From: Cochliopodium minus
Lineage: Eukaryota > Discosea > Himatismenida > Cochliopodiidae
DNA length: 30,161 bases
Assembly: GCA_024220525.1 (NCBI GenBank)
Contig: JAMYWO010000164.1
Coordinates: 1-30,161 of the forward strand
Reading direction: 5' to 3'
Shown here one piece after another: positions 329-30,100 of this stretch. The position numbers were made by a program, and so were the translations under genes. Under the pieces are notes generated by a model that saw nothing but the letters and a program-made list of their open reading frames with translations, was not told where the DNA came from and did not search any database. Positions within the stretch are counted from its first letter, which is position 1. The number at the start of each line of letters is the position of its first letter.

Positions 329-3300
329 TTAATTATTTTCTATCAATTTGTCTAATTGAACTTTGATCTTCTTGTCTTTAAGTATTTGGTAAACAATCGA
401 AGCAGTAGGCCTGTCAAAAATGAAAAAAAAATTTAATTTTAGAGGAAATTAATCTGTTACCTTTCGTTCGGATCATAAAGAGTCATTTGTTTGAGAATGG
501 TAACAAACATGGGAGGGCATTTGTGAACGTCAGGGACAGGAATATCTGGTATCTAAAGAATATTAATACTTTTGTGATTTTTTTAGAAATTAAAATAACC
601 ATTTCGTTGCTTTTGAACTTTTCTATTACTTCGTGTAAAAATTGGATGTGAACATTATGATAAGCATTTTTTCCTAGGTAAATCTTTGTCAATGAAAATT
701 TAGAATTTTTCCTAAAAATAAAGCTTTTAAAATAATTAACTTCAATAAATAAAATCCCCAAAGAATAAATGTCTGCAGATTCCCCGTACTTTGAGCTTAT
801 AATTATTTCCTTTTCTAATATAAAAAAATTCTCCAAAAAAAAAAAAAAAAAAAATTTTACAGGGGCCATATAAAAAAGTGTTCCAGCGTCCTTTGTCATA
901 GTGTTTTCTTCATATTTAGAAACAGAAACTCTTGAAACACCAAAATCTAAATATAAAATTTACTTTTTAATCGGAATTTCATTTTGTTGAATTTCATTAA
1001 TTTTTTTTACCAGCTAACTTGAACATCCCCTCTTTATTGACCAACACATTAGAAGGCTTGAGATCCCTGTGAAGAACGGGTGGGTCAAAAGAATGGAGGT
1101 ACTTCATGGCATTGCATATTTGGGTGCAACATTCCAACTTTGTTTTGGGATTCATTTTTTTAATTATTTTCTCAACATCTGTGTCCATGAGCTCTGTCAC
1201 CAACCTTTATAAAAAAAATAAAAAATAAAAAATTTGTCTTTATTTAAACAAAAATGAATATAAACTCAAATTATTTGTATTTCTTACATGAGCTCGTCTG
1301 AATGGACACATATCCCATAAATTTTCAAAATGTTTTCATTTTCAAAAGTGGACATCAATTTGATCTCCTTCAAAAACTCTGCGAAAAAGAGTTCACTCAT
1401 TTGCAATATAGTTTTGGCAGCCACATTTTTCCCTATTTTAAAAATATTAACCATACAACATTCTCATTTTTATTTTTCTTTGTGTTAACCTTTGTAAACT
1501 CCTTTTCTTACGAGTGCTTGTCCTCCTTTCCCTATTGTTTCACCTAATATCAATTTTTTAGGGTTAACTTTTGGAACATTTTCATCGTTCAAAATTGAAT
1601 TCAAATTTCCTATTAATAGAAAATTAAACAAAAATGAAAAAGATTGATTGATGAAAAAAAAACCTTGAATTGAATTTTCATTGAAATTTGGCAATAATAT
1701 GTAATTTCTAGATTTGTTTTTGTTTTTTTTGTAAAAAAAGACAGAAATACAAATAATGAGCAGCAACACAAGTAATACAACCAAACCCAACAAAAAAATT
1801 CTAAAAAAAGTCCATTCAAATGAAGAATAATTAATAAGATCCATCGCTTGGACACCCGAAGATGTAGCAACAAAGTATTCATTACTAGCTAATTCAAAAA
1901 CAAAAAAAAAAAAAATCTTAAAAAAATTATTATAATATTATAAAGTTTACCTTGTTGATAGTATATTTGTTCAATACCAGTTTTACTATTAACAGTGAGA
2001 AGATAAACGGTTTCATTGATGGCTGATATAGCGATTTGGTTGACTATTTGATCGTTTGTTTGAAAGAATTGAAATCTTTGATTTATGTTTTGTGAGAACT
2101 CCCTTTCTGTGATGTTGTATGCAGCAATATTCGTCATTGAGAGTGTGGAAGCCCTGTTAAAAATTTCATTTTTGGGAGATAAATTAAATAATAAAATAAC
2201 TTTAAATTACACAAAATTGAAATCTCCTCCTAAATATAATATATCTCCTTCAACATTTAGAGTTATTATATTGGAAGTAGGTAAGGTGGGACCTTTAATG
2301 GGAATGAAAGTTCCGTTCGTGTTGTTTGGGTCGGGTACTTTATACATAAGCAGGTTTGTAAAGTTAAAACCTTAAATTAAAAAAAAATAAAAAATTTGAA
2401 ATAAAAAATTTGAAATAAAAAATAAAAAATAAAAACAAAATAAATGGTACTCGTGGTATTGAATGTAAACTTTCCTCCAATAAAAATATAGCCGTTATAA
2501 GCTGCCAAAGAAACGAAATCACCATTATAAGAAGGAGAGTTTAAAATCAACTGAAATTTACTATCGATCCCAAAATCTGAGTCAAAGGAGAAAATCTCCA
2601 AAGAGCTCGATCCTCCCTGAACCAAAAGATAACCAATTCCTAAAAAAAAAAAATTTATTTGAAATATTCAAATAAAAAAATAAAACTAAACGTTACAAAT
2701 TATCGAATCAAATTTGTAAAATTTATTTTTTACCTGTCAATTGATCAACTGCCATTACATTTAAATTTCTCTGACTTCCATTGGGCAAATAAATGCAAGT
2801 CATATCAGAACTTACCTGACATTGCCTCTTGCAAACCTTTACATAAGCAGCGCTGTTGAATCCGAGGAACACATAGTCTTTGTAGTTTGAGAAATACACA
2901 GAATAAATTCCCTTCTCATTATGGACTTCAATAATCTCTTCCCAGTCATAACCTATTATAAAGATCATGAAAATAAATATTTTTAAAAAGTGATTTTTTT
3001 TTTTTTTTTTTTTTAATATAATAATGTTTAATTATTTTTAATGAAAAATAATTTTAAAAATATTTTCAACATTACCATCCCAAAAAGCTATCGAATTCAA
3101 GTTTTGTTCTTCTATGGAAGTAAACTCTCCAAAAACGTAAAAGGAGTCAACACCGCAAGACTTGATGCTTTTGATGGAGGGGGTATAATACAAGTTGGAA
3201 ACGTTAGAGAAAGTAGTGACGTCAGAGTCAATGTAGAAAGTTCCATTAATGGAATAGATATTGTCATAGTCAGGTTTCACTCGAGTGACAGTATAATTAT

Positions 3301-4742
3301 TTGAGTCGTAAAATAATGATGGAGAAGGGTAATAAATGCTATCTTTAAAAAAAATTTTTGAAGAAGAGAAATTTAATTCTCATATTTTACCTTTTGTAAT
3401 ACTAACAAATCTCTTGTTTAGATTGCTTATTGACAAATCAGCATATTGAAAAGAAGGCATCTTCACATTCGAGAGTAAAATCCTTTGATATATTTTTATT
3501 AAATTTGCTAGTTTATTTTTTTTTTTTAATATTTACCATTTTTGGTTGTCATTCTCATTTAAATATTGAATAGTTTCATTTTGGATGTTGAACAAGAAAA
3601 TTCTCCCATTTTCATCGCTATCAATGTAAAATGCTCCGATATAATAAGGATTGTTGACAATTTCCAGATTTCCTGTCACATTTTCATAAGAGAAACTTCC
3701 ATTGTACAGATTATTTGTGTACTTCAAAACTCCTAGTTCAGTCAAAAAGTAAGACACCTTTCAAATAAAACAATATAAATTCTTGATGTGATTAACATAT
3801 TTTACAAGATAATCGATATTTTGAAATTTATAAAAAATTTTTTTACTATTATTTGATCAGATACATATTTCCCTTTTACTCCATGATAAACTGTACCAAA
3901 AGTGTTGTTATATTTGAGATCAGAATTGAAGCATTTCTGCATAGGATCGTACCAATGAAAATTAGAAATTTTCTCACTACCGTCACAATTTTTTAAGTTG
4001 ACCTCATTGTACAACAGGATTGTTTCGCCTACCCAACCCAATACATTATAACAACAAGGTGAATTCGTTAAATAAGTAGTCCATTGTCCTTCAATAAAAT
4101 CATAAGATACCAAATTAGGGTATAGTTCGTCGTTGAGATATTGAATATAGATTTTGGAGATTCCGTCATAGGAGGTGGTTGCGCAGTTTGTGTAGTCTTC
4201 GATCCCGTTTCCCATCACGTCACAAAACCTCGTTGTTAGATCACATCTCATGATGTTGTTGGCAGGAATGTCTCCCAAAGATTGTATTTCTCCAATCAAA
4301 ATCACTGTATTATCTATTTAATTTAATTTAAAAATCATTCAATATTTATTTTTATAATAGGATAATTCAATCATGAATTTTCTTTTTTACTCGACAGCTT
4401 GATGACATAATCAATGGATTGACAATTTATATTTGGGAAATAGATTTGAGGAGTGCCATCTTGAGATAATAAAATGAGATTGCTGATAACTTTATTATCT
4501 AGCAGTGACATTTTGCCATAAATGAAAACATAATCTTGTCCATTCAGAGTGATATGCGTCAATCCCCTCATATATGATTCATTCTGTATGTATCCCTTGG
4601 AAATAGCCTTCGAAATCATATTATTTTGAGAAAAATAAAAAAATCCATTGTTGTTGATGGTATTGGTTGGATTGTACATTATCAAACCCTCTTTCATAAA
4701 TACAGAAACCAAAAGAATGAAGAAAAAAATTATTTCTTTCAT
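329..4742 (-). CDS. Receptor-like protein kinase: secreted kelch/Rax2-like ectodomain, one TM helix, kinase domain
   Basis: Multi-exon gene. The chosen ATG (4742) opens a signal peptide (MKEIIFFFILLVSVF); an in-frame ATG at 4778 is an alternative. Exons between 4742 and about 1890 encode a long ectodomain with repeated 'YIFIGGKFT', 'FYVFGEFTS...IAFWDG' and 'MILIGEIQSLGD' units, like the propeller repeats of Rax2/kelch-type proteins. One hydrophobic helix (about 1805-1735) is followed by a basic stop-transfer stretch. The cytosolic kinase has GKGGQA (glycine loop), VAAK (ATP lysine), a helix-C Glu (FLKEIKL), HRDLKPSN (catalytic Asp), DFG after splicing, DIYSLG, and DPNERPTA near the C terminus; the stop is at 331-329. 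All key catalytic residues are present, so it should be active, most likely TKL-like Ser/Thr. Oddity: my splice gives MAP-N rather than MAP-E at the APE motif, next to a long poly-T intron end. The ligand is unknown. Confidence 0.8.
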
Positions 4743-17669: not shown

Positions 17670-18242
17670 AAACAAAAATTCAAAAAGTTTCCAACATCAA
17701 TTCTCCACATTTGAAAATTAAAAAATTAATATCAATATGAGTTTCTTTGTTAATTTTAGAAGGAAAAAATAACCATACCAGATGAAATATATAGGTTACG
17801 TTAATACTTATAATTGCAAAAAAAAAAAAACAAGAACAGTAAAAAAAAATGACAAATTAGAGACTAAGATTTATTTATGACCACTGCAAACCACAAGGGC
17901 AAGCAAACCAGAGTGGTTCATTCAAACAAACAAAAAAAAATAAAACTAAAAATTTTAAATTAAAGAAAAAATAAATAGCCTTTAAAAAATTTTTCACAAA
18001 AACTTCTCTATTGTGGACCTGTGATGTATTTGAGTGTTTTTCATATTCAAAAATTTTTATAATACTTGATTATTTTTATTTTTTTTTTACTCCGCAAACA
18101 AAAAAAATGAAATTTCATTTAAACTGAAATTAAAATTCCAAAAAAATTTTTAAATTCTTTGCAAAGTTTCTTAATTAATGTATTTTATCAATTTTTAGAT
18201 TAAGCGGCAGTGAAATTCTGTACAGTGTTAAATAAAATAAAA
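17670..18242. other. Intergenic, no gene seen
   Basis: About 570 bases after the coiled-coil gene, with many poly-A runs and stops in all frames. I see no RNA gene or open frame of note. Confidence 0.5.
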
Positions 18243-18455
18243 ATGAAAAATGAATCTCTCAAAGAATCTCTCAAAGAATTTTTAGAGAATAAAATGTAAT
18301 GAGTATTATGATATAATAAAAGAATTCAAAGAGAAAGAAAATTTTTGACTTTGATCAAAGAAGAGAATTTGGATAAACTAGGATTTAAGATTAAACCCAA
18401 ATTGAAAATATTAGAAGAAAAAAGGGCAAAAAAAAAATCCCAATCTCCTTTATAA
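18243..18455 (+). pseudogene. Frameshifted SAM-domain-like remnant
   Basis: Reading starts MKNESLKESLKEFLENKM. After stops it resumes with EYYDIIKEFKEKENF and, one base out of frame after a T run near 18345, LTLIKEENLDKLGFKIKPKL and KILEEKRAKKKSQ to a TAA at 18453. The combined pattern (helix, then 'L..L.eenL..LGfk...klkIL') matches a SAM domain. SAM domains mediate protein-protein association. The two frame breaks argue for decay, or for a sequencing slip in the T run. Confidence 0.4.
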
Positions 18456-18518
18456 TTATTAATTTTTCTTTCATTTAGCAATTCCTTTTTCATTTCAAAT
18501 ATGAAGAAATAATTAAGA

Positions 18519-18842
18519 ATGGAAAATAAAGAAGTGGTAGATTTGATCAATAACATTGATAGTATAGAAGAAAATGATAAGAAAAGATATATTGTGAGTT
18601 TAATTGATAATAAATTAACAACAAAAGAAAAATTGAGAAAGATAGATGAACTTCATTTGGGAAAAATAGGAATAGAAATTGGTGACAGATACTCAATTTT
18701 CGATTCAATAAAAGTAAATATTTATCTGGTTCAATTAATTCATCATAATTTATTTATTTTAAATTCACAAAATCGATCTTGTCAATCCATTTATCGTATA
18801 AATCTGAAAAATAGACATGTCCAAATATTACAACTTTGTTAG
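18519..18842 (+). CDS. Small SAM-like protein or first exon
   Basis: The ORF begins MENKEVVDLINNIDSIEEND and runs to RKIDELHLGKIGIEIGDRYS and IFDSIK at 18714. The second half matches the SAM C-terminal helices ('L..lGI..GdR..Il..Ik'). A good donor, GTAAATATTT, follows at 18715, so the true exon may end there. Read through, the ORF continues 43 residues to 18842, but that tail is antisense to the last exon of the deiodinase-like gene and looks less protein-like. No downstream exon was identified. It could be the surviving N-terminus of a larger SAM protein; the SAM remnant immediately upstream is related in type. Confidence 0.4.
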   Translation: MENKEVVDLINNIDSIEENDKKRYIVSLIDNKLTTKEKLRKIDELHLGKIGIEIGDRYSIFDSIKVNIYLVQLIHHNLFILNSQNRSCQSIYRINLKNRHVQILQLC

Positions 18843-19497
18843 AGGATATAATATTTTTAATAACAAAATTTAAACTGTTGTAATATTTTTGGACATCTCC
18901 ATCTGAAAAAGAGGAAATTTTAAATTTAAAAGTTTATAAAAAATATAATGGTATTCTTCATAGATTGATTCAAAAATAATTGGAGAATAGTATCTCTTTA
19001 TTGATCTATTGTTAATTTAATTTAAATAATATTTTAAATCAAAAGATTATATTATTCTCTTACGATTGATTTTGATCGTTTTATTGTGGAATGGCAATCA
19101 AGATGAGCTTCCAAAGTTCAATAGTACCATATCTTTAGCAACCAAATCGAATAATTTGATTTCTTTTTGTTGATCAATTGAATATACTGGGGTGTTGGGT
19201 ACATCTCCTCCTATCTTCAATGATCCATCCGATGAAAAATCCCATTTTTTGATATTCTCTTCCGTCAATTCACTGTAAATAATTTTGTCTGTATAATATG
19301 GGCTAATATAGGAGTGTAAAAGTTGGATTAGGGAAATTTAAAATATTTTGAAAGGATAATGAAAATTATTTGTTCTATGGTTAAAGAATGGGGAATATAT
19401 TTAAATTTGGATTTATAATTTTATCTTTACCACATTCTTCCCACATGATCTTTTTCTTCACAAAAATAACAATAAGCTTTTCCTGTATCTCAGACAT
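18754..19497 (-). CDS. CCHC zinc-knuckle / deiodinase-like thioredoxin-fold protein, probable selenoprotein
   Basis: Three exons: 19497-19431, 19302-19064 and 18902-18754. Exon 1 encodes CYFCEEKDHVGRM. Splicing (TG|GT..AG|C) completes a Cys, giving a perfect CX2CX4HX4C zinc knuckle followed by PYYTDKIIYSELTEENIKKW. Exon 2 then reads LKIGGDVPNTPVYSID, LFDLVAKDMVLLNFGSSS, TGA (19100-19098), LPFHNKTIKIN. Iodothyronine deiodinases have NFGSCT-Sec-PPF at this place, so the TGA aligns exactly with selenocysteine. Exon 3, in phase 1, gives GDVQKYYNSLNFVIKNIISS and KVVIFGHVYFSDLYDKW, like the helix and the 'vdFL.IYi.EAH..DGW' strand that follow, then a TAA. The usual last ~90 residues are missing. 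The ATG at 19497 is one base out of frame with the knuckle (an A-run at about 19480). I could not find a SECIS element by eye. Confidence 0.55.
18814..18899. repeat. Near-perfect ~21-bp inverted repeat inside a coding exon
   Basis: GACATGTCCAAATATTACAA(C) at 18814-18834 is matched in reverse complement by the sequence at 18877-18899, with one mismatch and a two-base A insertion. The loop is 42 bases. Both arms lie in exon 3 of the deiodinase-like gene, so its mRNA could form a long hairpin here. Confidence 0.75.
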
Positions 19498-19859
19498 TTT
19501 TTTTTATTTTTCATTTTAATCAGAAAAAAATTTTTATGGGAACATATGTTTGATATAAAATTCATTTAACCAGTTCGAGAAGTAAAATAAGCAAATACTC
19601 GGAAAACTGGATCTGATTTAAATATTTCTTTTGAAGTAAACTTGTATTTATAATTAAAATTTATTTATTTTTTAATCACATACATTTTTCCTTGAATTGG
19701 ATTTCATAAAGGAAAGGAAAATGTTTTTTGTTGGTTTCTTTTCCTCATTTCATTCTCATCAATAATCTCTTAATCCTTGGTGTTAAACCTTTTTTTTTTT
19801 TTAAAGTTTTTGCTTTTTTGTGAAATTGAAAAATTTGAAGATAAAAAAAAAAAAATAAA
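19498..19859. promoter_or_regulatory. 362-bp divergent intergenic region
   Basis: The region lies between the start of the minus-strand deiodinase-like gene and the plus-strand PB1-like ORF. It is AT-rich, with T-runs and a poly-A run just before the plus-strand ATG. No specific element stands out. Confidence 0.35.
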
Positions 19860-20045
19860 ATGGATTTTGAAATTGATTTGAGTTATGGAGAATTTTTGAT
19901 TGAAGCAAAGTTTAAAAAAATTGATAACTTTAAAGAATTATCAAAACAAATAAAGCATCATTTTTCAATAAAGAATGAGATAAAAATAAAATATAAGAAA
20001 GGAGAAAAANTATATAGGAATTTCAATATATATATCCAAAATTAA
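19860..20045 (+). CDS. PB1/ubiquitin-like small ORF, possibly the first exon of a larger gene
   Basis: The 61-residue ORF begins MDFEIDLSYGEFLIEAKFKK and continues DNFKELSKQIKHHFSIKNEI then KIKYKKGEK. The arrangement of a short beta strand, a 'F.eL...I...F.i' helix and an 'ikYk..' strand resembles a PB1 or ubiquitin-like N-terminal domain. Such domains assemble signalling or autophagy complexes. An ambiguous base (N) at 20010 falls in the codon after GEK, and the reading ends soon after, so truncation by an assembly or sequencing fault is possible. No continuation was found downstream. Confidence 0.35.
   Translation: MDFEIDLSYGEFLIEAKFKKIDNFKELSKQIKHHFSIKNEIKIKYKKGEKXYRNFNIYIQN
20010..20010. 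other. Ambiguous base N
   Basis: The only non-ACGT base in the window, inside the PB1-like ORF. The base call or assembly here is uncertain. Confidence 0.95.
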
Positions 20046-24900: not shown

Positions 24901-27132
24901 GTTAAAAAAAAATGAATTCCTTTTAAAAAATGTTTTTAAAAATTAACAATAAAATTTGTTTGTAAAAAACGAACTTAAAGCACTTGTCGCAAAACTTGGT
25001 TTTTATCTCTCCTCAAAAGCAGAAATCTTTATAGTTTTCTTAAAAAATTGTTAATAATGAATTTTGAATGATTATTTTTGAGCATCTTTATTATTTTTGT
25101 TAAGATTAATAGATTTCAGAGAAAAAAATCTATTATGTTTCATATTTCTTTTTTATGAATTTATACAATCAAATAAATTGTATATTCAAAATAATTCAGG
25201 ATAATGAAAATAAAGCTCCTCTTACGATTTTTTTTTTGAGAAAATAAAAAAAAATAAAAAAAATTGTGCTGTTTATATTGTTAATATCAATTTTATATTA
25301 GATTATCATATATCTATACTAAATTCCAACCTCCTTAATGCCCAACAGGGAAATTTGATAAAGTATAATTGTTTTGTTAAAAATTTATTAATTGTATATT
25401 TTCATATTAACTTTTTCAAACCCACTCTAGAAATTTTTAATCAAATAAAAATAAAAATAAAATAAGAGGAAGAGTATATCAGGTTTGATGGATTTGTAGG
25501 AACAAGATGTTACAATTTGGAGCAATCATATCTTTGTTTCTATGATTTATATCAATCATGTTATTTTTTGAAAATATAAAAATACGTGGAACATATATGT
25601 TCACCTCAAAATCCAGTAATATGAAAGAGAATATACCATTCAAATTTAAAATCTTGATAGAGATAATTAATATTTCTTTCAATCGAAGGTATTTAATTTA
25701 TTTAGCATTATTTTTATATCATTCTATCTCCATAAATGAAAAGATATAAGAGATTAAAAAAATTTGGATACATAATATTTATCATTTGTAATTTAATTTA
25801 CCTTCCATAATTTTATAATGCTCGATTTATTTGATCAATCCAAAATTTTCACTATTTGTCTCAAATGAGATGATAAATAATTTCCAATGAGTTGATAAAT
25901 GGGAAAACAAAACGTAAATTTTTTTTATATTTTTAATTTATTGCTTTCATAATTTTCCATTTATTTAGTTGATTGGGTAATCATATCTTTATTATTGGGA
26001 AATTCTTTTTCTGAATTATTTGATCCCTCATCTCCTGCCTCCTTCTCATCTGGGTTTTTTTTAACTCAATCTCTATTTGGGGGGATATTTTGGAGAAATC
26101 GCTAAATTCATCTATATTTTTTGACATACCCTTGCAGAAAAATTTTCCCTTGAAAGATGTAAAGAGCTAGATATCTTCAGATATGCAATGTTTTCTCAAT
26201 GATTTGGATGAAGGGATCCTTCTCTTTAATTTGACCACAAGGATTTATTACAATCTCCATTTTGTAAAAATTCCCATCTAATTCCTTGGAATTCTTAATA
26301 ATTCTTTTTTTTTTTATAAAATTTGAAAGTAATTTTTATTGATTGTTCATTATCTATCATCCATTAGATACACTGATGGAGAAACAACATTTTTCTTCCA
26401 TTTGAAAAAAGTAAAATTCCATTATGTATAACTCAAAATATGAGATTCAAAATTGATATCTCACACAAAAATAACAACAAAAATAATGAGATAAAATCAA
26501 TAAGAGTGAACTAAGATATCATTGATAAACAAGAAATAAAACAAATGAATAATGAATTTTCCATTATTGAAGATTCTATTAAAGAAGAAAGGGAACAGAA
26601 GATATATCTTTGGATAAGGCCGGAAAAAGAATAGAAAAGAATTTGGAGAATTATTGGAAGTGATGATTATGAAAATATCAAACTTGCAAGAAAATTATTT
26701 TGCAAGAAAAATCGCAAATGATGAAGATAATGAATTACAAGAATTGGGTAAAATAAGAAATTTTGGTTTGGGCAATTTATGCCAAGATAATGTTGCAATT
26801 AAAATTCCATCATCTCTTAATTGTATTATCTTTTTTGGATATGTTCGATTATTCGAACATTAAATAGGTTTCAAAAATATATATAATGGAAACATGATTA
26901 TTTGTTGATTTAAAAACAATTCATAATGTATATTTTTCTTAAATTTCATTAAACTTTGATAAGTAAAATCAAAATTGTTATATCCCACTCAGATGATATA
27001 CAATCAATGATCCCAATGTGATGTTTTTTCATAGTTATATCAATATCCAATATGTCTATAAAGCCTCTTTTGATGGCTTGGAAATTTTAGAATATAAATA
27101 AATTTTATATAATTCAATTTAAAAAAAGAAAG
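24901..27132. other. 2.2-kb gene-poor AT-rich region
   Basis: It must contain the missing first exon of the orphan minus-strand gene and the promoter of the plus-strand PARP gene. Short plus-strand frames at 25558-25749 and 26654-26863 (the latter with EDNELQELGKIRNFGLGNLC) show no recognisable domain; stretches in neighbouring frames at 26550-26700 look weakly coding and may be a decayed gene. No RNA gene, transposase or tandem repeat was seen. Confidence 0.45.
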
Positions 27133-30100
27133 ATGTTAAAATCTACTGAACAACAATTAAATGATTTGTTGGAAGAATTGAGTAACATCAAAGAAGAAGA
27201 TGATTTAAATTTGAACGAATTGAATTATTTAAAAGAAATACCAAAGGTGGAAGAAACATTCTTTGATGATTTGGATGATTCATTGGGAGATAATATAAAT
27301 AAAAAGGAAATTGATCAAGATGCAGGATTGGATTATATTTCAGATACTCAAGGAATTTCAAACTATAATATAGACGATCTATTGAATGAATTGAATGATT
27401 TAGAAATAGAAGAGAATAATCAAGGAGAGGAATATCAAAATGAGAATTTGGGGGAAGAATATCATGAAGATTCTCTTATATTTGATGATAATGAGCCAAT
27501 AATTGATGATGAAAGAGGCACAGATCAAAATTTGGAGAAGATAAAAGACGAGAATCTATTGCCATACTTGATAAACAATTGCTCCTATGAATCCAGGAGA
27601 TTGATGCATGAAATGGATGATAAAATCAGAAATACAAAAGTAGATTTTGTGGAACAAAGCAATATAGAAATAGATAAATTCAAAGATCAATTATTGCAAG
27701 ATATAAGAACCAATGATAGAAATGTTGATAGTATATTTGTAGGATGTAAATTCTTTTTGGAATCCACTCTTTTGAATACAGAATATAAAAAAAACATGGC
27801 AAAGATTATCAAAGATGGGGGAGGTCAAATAGCATATATCTTATCCAAACAAGTAAAATCAAATTTTTATTATTGAAAATAATTAATCTTATTAATTCAA
27901 ACAAAGACAACACATTATCTTACCAACCAACAAACTTTTTATGAAAAAACAAACAACTTTAACAAAGCCAAAGAGTATGGAGTACCCATTCTTTCAACAG
28001 AGTACATTCAAGAGAGTTCCAACCAAGGTTTTCTTTTGGATATTCAACCGTACCTTATTTCAGAAGAGAATATCAGGTCTCAAGAGTCTCAATACGAAAC
28101 AATTTTAAGGAATGTTTCTTTTGCTTCATTAATCTGTAAACATTCTTTCCGAAAATAAAAATGATCTTAATAATTTATTTTAAAAGTGGAAAAGAAGAAT
28201 GTATATTTAACAAAACCAACAATTAATGTTGATGAACTACCTATAATTCCTTACTCAAATGAAACAAATTCTTTCCCGGAATGTGAATATGAAATAATTA
28301 GAAGTGATGTCTTTCAGTCCAATAAAGAATCAAAATTTTATGCATTGGAACTGCATGTAGGAATAGTTAGAGACTCTCCAAATATCATCGAGGCAGAAAA
28401 GAGTCTGAGTCTTCCTATCAAAAATTATTCGTTCCGAGTTTTTACACATGAAGGATCAATTGATAAACTAAAGTACGATCCAAATGAAGGAAATAAATAT
28501 ACAAGGTAAAAAATTATTTTTGAGTCTACTAAAAAAAGTTAATTTTAATTTCAATAGGGAAGTGAATAATATTGATGAAGCAGAGGTTTTGTATTCTATA
28601 CTCATATCAAGAATGATTATTAATGACTATACTCAATTGGGACTATACTCAAACAATATAGGATCCGACAAAGCTAAGATAAGTGGTTTATCTTTGACAA
28701 ATAATACCACTAATCAACTTCCAAATGAAGTTTCATCAATGGTGGAGTACATTTTCAATGAGGCTAACAAGAAACTCAATCAAATAGTGAAAGGACATCT
28801 AACTATCGAGGGAACAATCAAAACTCCATTGGGAATACTATCTTTGAATCAACTTGAAAGAGCACAAGTGGTTTTATTTCAAATAGGAGATTTACTTAAG
28901 GAAGAGGAAGTTGATAAAAATAGGATTGGAACATTATCTAACGAATATTACAGTTTGTTCCCTCAAGATATCAAAGAAAACATTAACACCCCACAAATTT
29001 ATGAATCTCAACAAGAAAAGATTCAACTTCTCAAAGATGTTCTTAATGTTGGGGAGGTAACTGGTGGATCTCTTTTCTCTTCTCTTGTTCAATTGAAGTA
29101 TAAATCTTTGAGTTGTCAAATCGGACATTTGGATAACAAATCCAAGGATTACTTTGAAATATCTCAACTATTCTCTCAAAACTCCCTTAAGGTTTCCAAC
29201 ATTTTTACTCTTTACAAACCAACTGAAAGAAATACTTTTAAATCTCATATTCCAAACCAAAAACTATTGTTTCACGGCTCAAGAGTAAGTAATATTGTTG
29301 GAATTTTGAGTAGAGGATTACTTTTACCAAAAACTGTTGTCTCAAAGGGTGTTAAAAGAACAGGTTATAATTTTGTTTAATTTTTTTTTTTTTTTTTTAT
29401 TTTCTTTCATAGATTATGGATATCTTGGTGCTGGTATTTATTTTGCTCCTGATCCCAAAACAAGTTCGATCTATACTGATGTTGGATATCAAGGTACAAG
29501 ATTTATGTTTGCTTGTAACGTTGCTTTAGGAAAAGAAAAACATTATCTCAAGCAAATGCCACATTTAGAAGGTAAATAAAAATTTTATTTTTGATTAATT
29601 CATTATTTAGTTTTATATTAGGAGCCCCTGAATCTTTTCATTCAGTCAAAGGGGTCAAAGGAAGTGAATTTGAGAACGATGAATATGTGATCTATGACGA
29701 AAGCCAACAACATTTAGAGTATTTGATTGAGTTTTCTCTCGAGGGAGACCAAAAAACAACTATCCCAAATCTTGTTAATGATTCTCAACGTATGGAATAC
29801 TCTTCAGAGAAATATCACGACCTTTATGATTATGGAAAGCCTGAAAAACAAGAGGAAAAGATAAAAAGTGGATTGAGATCAACAAATGGGGATGTTGCTG
29901 TCCCTTTAAAAAAGGTATTCGTAAAAGGGAAACTGTTGGACATGGTGGGCGAAATAATTGTTTTTCAACACTACAAAAATGAAGGAAATTCCCCTATTGA
30001 AGCAAAATATGTCTTTCCCTTGGATGAAATGAGTGCTGTATGTGGATTTGAAGCATTCATAAACGGAAAACACATTATAGGAAAAGTTAAAGAAAAAGAG

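Follow-up and report, generated by a model that had tools for sequence, protein, structure and literature searches.

A probable selenocysteine deiodinase-family gene in Cochliopodium minus, cut short beside a MITE-like element and very likely continued on another contig

A 30,161-nucleotide stretch of Cochliopodium minus DNA (contig JAMYWO010000164.1; here called the window) carries on its minus strand a deiodinase-like reading frame with an in-frame TGA, which raises the question of whether this TGA is a selenocysteine (Sec) codon and whether the gene around it is complete. The original prediction placed the TGA at the Sec position of the deiodinase active site, let coding continue beyond it to a splice donor and joined a third exon to it. 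Exon 2, which reads DVPNTPVYSIDQQKEIKLFDLVAKDMVLLNFGSSS ahead of the TGA, gave VLLNFGSSS-TGA-LPFHNKTIKIN on the minus strand, with the TGA in the column that holds Sec (or Cys) in the motif NFGSxx-U-xPF, and was closed by a GTAAGA donor from 19063. When it was read through the TGA, the only Pfam family matched at E values up to 10 was T4_deiodinase (PF00837), at profile positions 73-120 and with a score just below the curated cut-off of 27 bits. Both the placement of the motif and the coding past the TGA were thus borne out. The exon matched only itself in its own genome, its best deiodinase match in the PDB reached only E 0.52, and a PF00837 search of the genome did not return it. Rfam, applied to the window at the gathering threshold, gave 0 matches. 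The features of the locus are collected in Table 1.

Table 1. Positions of the deiodinase-type gene, the inserted element and the neighboring features in the window
Feature	Positions	Strand	Evidence
Predicted exon 1 of the deiodinase-type gene; ATG at 19497; MSEIQEKLIVIFVKKKIMWEEC	19431-19497	minus	In-phase join to exon 2 over a GT-AG intron
Exon 2, with the motif NFGSSS-TGA-LPF	19064-19288	minus	PF00837, E 5.5e-6, 26.3 bits, read through the TGA
In-frame TGA at the selenocysteine position	19098-19100	minus	Alignment column shared with the TGA of three other deiodinase genes
Target-site duplication, copy 1, TTTTTCAGA; contains the original acceptor AG	18902-18910	minus	
90-bp terminal-inverted-repeat (MITE-like) element at the intron 2 acceptor	18812-18901	minus	39 other scored places at at least 85% identity; 22 copies aligned; inverted repeat; missing at the C10 site
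Target-site duplication, copy 2, TTTTTCAGA; restores the acceptor beside the true exon	18803-18811	minus	
What is left of the true exon 3; agrees with C10 as far as 18765 and diverges beyond; TAA at 18756-18754	18754-18803	minus	
Junction from the deiodinase exon to an intron of the convergent gene; probably near the high end of the range	18727-18765		Limits of the C10 and convergent-gene matches
Convergent gene, 5' part, of a small repeated family; cut at the junction	18513-18726	plus	Relatives on C40, C176 and other contigs; GTAAAT donor next

The same search of the genome with PF00837 returned genes on contigs C43, C358 and C40 above the cut-off and a place on C10 below it (24.2 bits), and no match was obtained in any of 14 control genomes. 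Aligned with the window gene, the genes on C43, C40 and C358 placed their TGA in one column with that of the window, within the motifs AGSNT-U-PPF, AGSIT-U-PPF and GGTVS-U-PPF, respectively, and all three read on beyond it. In the C358 gene the codon is split as TG|A by a 75-nt phase-2 intron (GTAAAA...TTTTAG; L002 1898-1824, minus strand), so this Sec codon would exist only after splicing. The available portions of PMC2612030 and PMC3316567 contain no statement on split Sec codons. The alignment that the original prediction had drawn to the deiodinase family therefore holds across four genes, and the window very probably carries a genuine member of the deiodinase type, with the TGA as its selenocysteine codon. 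The C43 gene (L001) carries EAM where the other three have EAH.

Most of the machinery for Sec decoding was found in the genome. The tRNA-Sec lies on C394 (66.4 bits, anticodon TCA) and eEFSec on C511, where eEFSec_4th (PF21131) scored 72.9 bits and euk_SelB_III (PF21208) 34.7 bits and where the G-domain piece was closest to the eEFSec structures 5izk and 7zjw (1.6e-14). In addition, SepSecS was matched over five stretches on C6 and selenophosphate synthetase on C19, whereas one model for PSTK found no match in the genome. The tRNA and the elongation factor named in the original prediction are thus both present. Two of the other selB-type matches proved to be different GTPases: that on C359 is eIF2-gamma and that at 235 kb on C10 is EF1A-like. 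On reading their open frames, the candidates on C533, C271 and C72 were set aside, and those on C231 and C42 were set aside as probable EF1A. An ordinary stop function of TGA is also seen in this genome: in the EF1A-like gene on C10, it closes the frame once the C-terminal domain is complete. The selenophosphate synthetase (L023, 573-1655) is a Cys form (LKGCGCKVP) and no selenoprotein. The C533 locus (L025) holds two adjacent, similar EF1A-like GTPase genes with the unusual start ILFCGAHRSGKSTLIGS, and the C359 locus (L021) has at 3048-3797 an open frame that encodes a repeat of about 40 residues (KSHHGNYLRADTNGTVNLTQV...) in near-identical copies.

The third exon of the original prediction was said to join in phase and to be deiodinase-like. 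The first part stood: the frame is open from 18902 to 18754 in the correct phase. The second part fell, because this exon is mostly a 90-bp repeat element and has no deiodinase match on its own; in Pfam, the stretch 18933-18754 alone gave only a subthreshold match to another family (E 0.06). When positions 18700-19070 of the window were searched against the genome (44.65 Mb), 455 first-look candidates were obtained, of which 40 were scored (the window and 39 other places). All 40 span window positions 18896-18812 at an identity of at least 85%. Twenty-two of the 39 other copies were lined up, and these are about 97% alike. In 18 of the 22, the flanking 9-mers agree at 8 or 9 of 9 bases in a fixed register, and 16 of the 22 have the tip TAGG, where the window copy has TGGA. 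The element thus resembles miniature inverted-repeat transposable elements (MITEs) in its length of about 90 bp, its inverted ends, its 9-bp flanking direct repeats as a target-site duplication and its many near-identical dispersed copies. The best Rfam match in window positions 18000-19100, of microRNA type (E 0.022), sits on this element.

The phase of the predicted join follows from the size of the insertion, because element and duplication together measure 90 + 9 = 99 bp; it is arithmetic and no sign of coding. The whole predicted model did score 29.2 bits for PF00837, above the cut-off and 2.9 bits more than exon 2 alone, with a matched stretch that ends at residue 113, about 16 residues into the predicted exon 3, which starts at residue 98. 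The case illustrates how an in-frame exon can be mimicked by a small transposon that sits on a splice site.

The rest of the gene very likely lies on C10, a judgment that applies jointly to the whole explanation given below. The C10 copy opens directly after a single N and resembles the window at 93% in the end of the intron and at 96% in the start of the exon. It is an empty site, with one TTTTTCAGA, no element and the same acceptor. From position 176636, three exons read HLYDKWIDKIDIVTIYITEAHPIDEWK... up to a stop. By itself, this half scored 74.9 bits for PF00837 at profile positions 127-235, and exons 1 and 2 of the window followed by the C10 exons scored 113.5 bits at positions 67-235, with the join staying in one frame. 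The E-A-H motif of the deiodinase family has a catalytic role. It belongs to the second half of the domain and is present on C10 as YITEAHPIDEW; the window copy is cut before it. Compared with solved structures, the joined protein matched mouse type III deiodinase (4tr3) at E 2.2e-23, gapless at the joint, and type II deiodinase (9h48) at 3.6e-14, over the Sec motif and EAHP-D-W. Two points count against this joining, which is a predicted one: the halves lie on different contigs, and the C10 half starts at a single-N joint.

We then considered the SECIS element that a Sec codon needs. By eye and by folding, a SECIS-like hairpin was seen in the 3' flank of the C10 gene and of the C43, C40 and C358 genes. 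A pattern set after viewing these four hairpins (ATGA, an arm of 9-13, AAA, a pairing arm, YGA) matched exactly once in the 600-base 3' flank of each of the four genes, with a spacing of 12 bases between ATGA and AAA in all of them. A first energy-based scan had found nothing in L002, whose 3' core is CGAC, and the 3' core of the pattern was widened to YGA after this miss. Per 1,000 shuffles, 8 (L001), 9 (L002), 12 (L003) and 1 (L004) were as good, and among 260 ordinary 600-base genomic segments read on both strands, the pattern occurred in 7 at the weakest of the four energies and in 4 at -6.0. The folding energies of the hairpins alone are modest or weak (z of -2.97, -1.89, -1.70 and -0.97). 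In Rfam at E up to 10, L001 and L003 gave 8 matches, none of them to a SECIS family.

Covariance models were built in both directions. That of the C10 hairpin scored the other three at 31.2, 26.3 and 24.4 bits, against a background in which the antisense of its own hairpin reached 27.3 bits, amid the three, and the next match 21.5 bits. Because MAFFT aligned the 3' arm poorly, a model-guided alignment that leans to the structure of the C10 hairpin was used; in this three-hairpin alignment, 89.7% of the cells pair and 11 of 13 pairs changed on both sides. The three-hairpin model, whose alignment had previously been fitted to the C10 model, scored the C10 hairpin at 70.2 bits, with the next match in 33 kb at 22.8 bits. 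These results point to candidate SECIS hairpins for the C10 copy and for the three other deiodinase genes. The same scan 3' of the window gene was negative: no pattern match occurred in 600 bases downstream, and the single weak match in 1,500 bases was equaled by 157 of 1,000 shuffles. The models gave only noise there, the best minus-strand score of the C10 model being 15.1 bits and the three-hairpin model returning nothing at E up to 1. Thus, completeness and Sec decoding of the gene in the form drawn in the window were not supported, on three grounds, namely an exon 3 made mostly from a mobile element, a catalytic second half that lies on C10 and the lack of a recognized SECIS. Sec decoding itself, called plausible in the original prediction, is supported for the gene, with its family and its Sec codon, by the machinery and by the TGA and hairpins of the three further genes, but not for the window copy, which is half a gene with no recognized SECIS.

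The way in which the window copy ends was examined from both sides. Of the true exon 3, it retains about 40 bp. On the other side, the similarity of the window to relatives of the convergent gene extends to 18720 for C40, to 18725 for C176 and, for a weaker relative on C6 (75%), to 18756. Because the C10 match and the convergent-gene matches stop there, both genes of the window are cut within 18727-18765. The convergent gene had no Pfam match; further open frames lie downstream on C40 and C176 and may be taken as the remainder of its relatives. Upstream of the deiodinase-type gene, window positions 19654-20009 have a 91% copy at C39:148462-148828 and border a single N at window position 20010.

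Altogether, we consider it highly probable that the window holds the 5' half (two exons) of a Sec deiodinase-family gene that was interrupted by a MITE-like element and whose remainder, with a putative SECIS, is on C10. In this proposed mechanism, the 90-bp element would have inserted at the acceptor of intron 2 and duplicated TTTTTCAGA, and the window version would leave the true exon 3 for the convergent gene after about 40 bp. An intact mRNA would run from the window exons through the C10 exons to a type II-like SECIS hairpin at its end, and this hairpin, with tRNA-Sec and eEFSec, would recode the UGA. The product would be a thioredoxin-fold redox enzyme in which the UGA is meant as Sec. 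UGA recoding would thus belong to the intact version. As drawn, the window UGA would act as a stop, because the second half of the enzyme and a recognizable SECIS are missing, and the drawn copy is probably either nonfunctional or an assembly chimera.

The last point allows two versions of this explanation. In the first, which we place just short of an even chance, the junction in the window is an assembly error, the real gene is intact and runs from the window to C10, and the remainder of the convergent gene lies elsewhere. On the deiodinase profile, one half covers positions 73-120 and the other 127-235, so that they complement each other; the C10 half begins at the joint, and one junction cuts two unrelated genes beside an element with many near-identical copies. 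However, element and junction are separated by about 40 bp of unique exon, which a misjoin at the element itself would not account for, and the overlap of window and C10 differs in sequence.

The second version, to which we give a somewhat lower but still substantial probability, takes the window copy as real, namely as a second near-identical copy or allele that was disabled by the element and by a rearrangement that joined it to the convergent gene, with C10 as the working copy. The 5' half of C10 would then have been lost at a scaffold joint by collapse with the window copy, and the window UGA would now be a stop. The overlap differs by a 5-bp indel, one exon base and the element, and therefore two versions are present in the sequenced DNA. 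Moreover, the window crosses the junction with no N. On the C10 piece, the first difference comes about 45 bp after the start, which is what a collapse of identical 5' parts would produce. In the loci examined, an isolated N follows an AT-rich run at four places, and a block of 549 Ns occurs once; the 5' part of C10 may therefore have been lost at such a joint. Against this version, no second assembled copy of exons 1 and 2 was found in the genome, a missing match that does not prove absence, and the cut of the convergent gene at the same junction also fits a false join.

If the window copy is real, it can tentatively be read as a natural loss-of-SECIS event, in which the Sec codon was kept and the SECIS was cut off by a rearrangement beside the element insertion. 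Two copies in one genome would then read the same UGA differently, one as Sec and the other as a stop, and the target duplication of the element would have restored the splice acceptor.

Two other readings fared much worse. It is very unlikely that the TGA is a plain stop mutation or a sequencing error in a former Cys deiodinase; the drawn copy is indeed broken and TGA is a normal stop in the EF1A-like gene, but three other deiodinase genes carry TGA in the same column and read on, and the Sec machinery is present. Least probable of all is an element exonized in frame, with ATG 19497 to TAA 18754 encoding a working Sec protein served by an unrecognized SECIS, which the open frame and the score above the Pfam cut-off favor, but which leaves a mostly repeat-derived exon 3, no conserved second half with its EAH motif and downstream sequence with no pattern match in 600 bases and noise-level matches to two models.

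The deiodinase family is known outside animals, and the window gene is a new member of it. As the original prediction noted, such selenoproteins include one from Dictyostelium: passages of PMC2375036 report a Sec deiodinase homologue in Dictyostelium discoideum, with a type II SECIS that has an unpaired AAA in the apical bulge and UGUA before the core. Null mutants of this homologue (didA / DDB_G0275741) showed normal DIF dechlorinase activity according to parts of PMC3205185. The present genes resemble the Dictyostelium gene, as those passages describe it, in being Sec homologues from a nonanimal eukaryote and in the AAA at the apical bulge, which all four hairpins have, but the four hairpins lack UGUA before the core. 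A comparison of the published description also sets the one gene reported there (PMC2375036) against apparently four here, one of which (C358) has an intron-split Sec codon. Four such genes, one with a split codon, bear on the origin of deiodinases and on their role without thyroid hormone. The joined protein differs from the vertebrate deiodinases in leaving the N-terminal profile positions 1-66 unmatched, and its substrates, as those of a putative thioredoxin-fold selenoenzyme, may be disulfides, peroxides or halogenated compounds. Elsewhere in the window, PARP regulatory and catalytic domains were found at 28472-29380, together with a weak BRCT match at 27091-27876.
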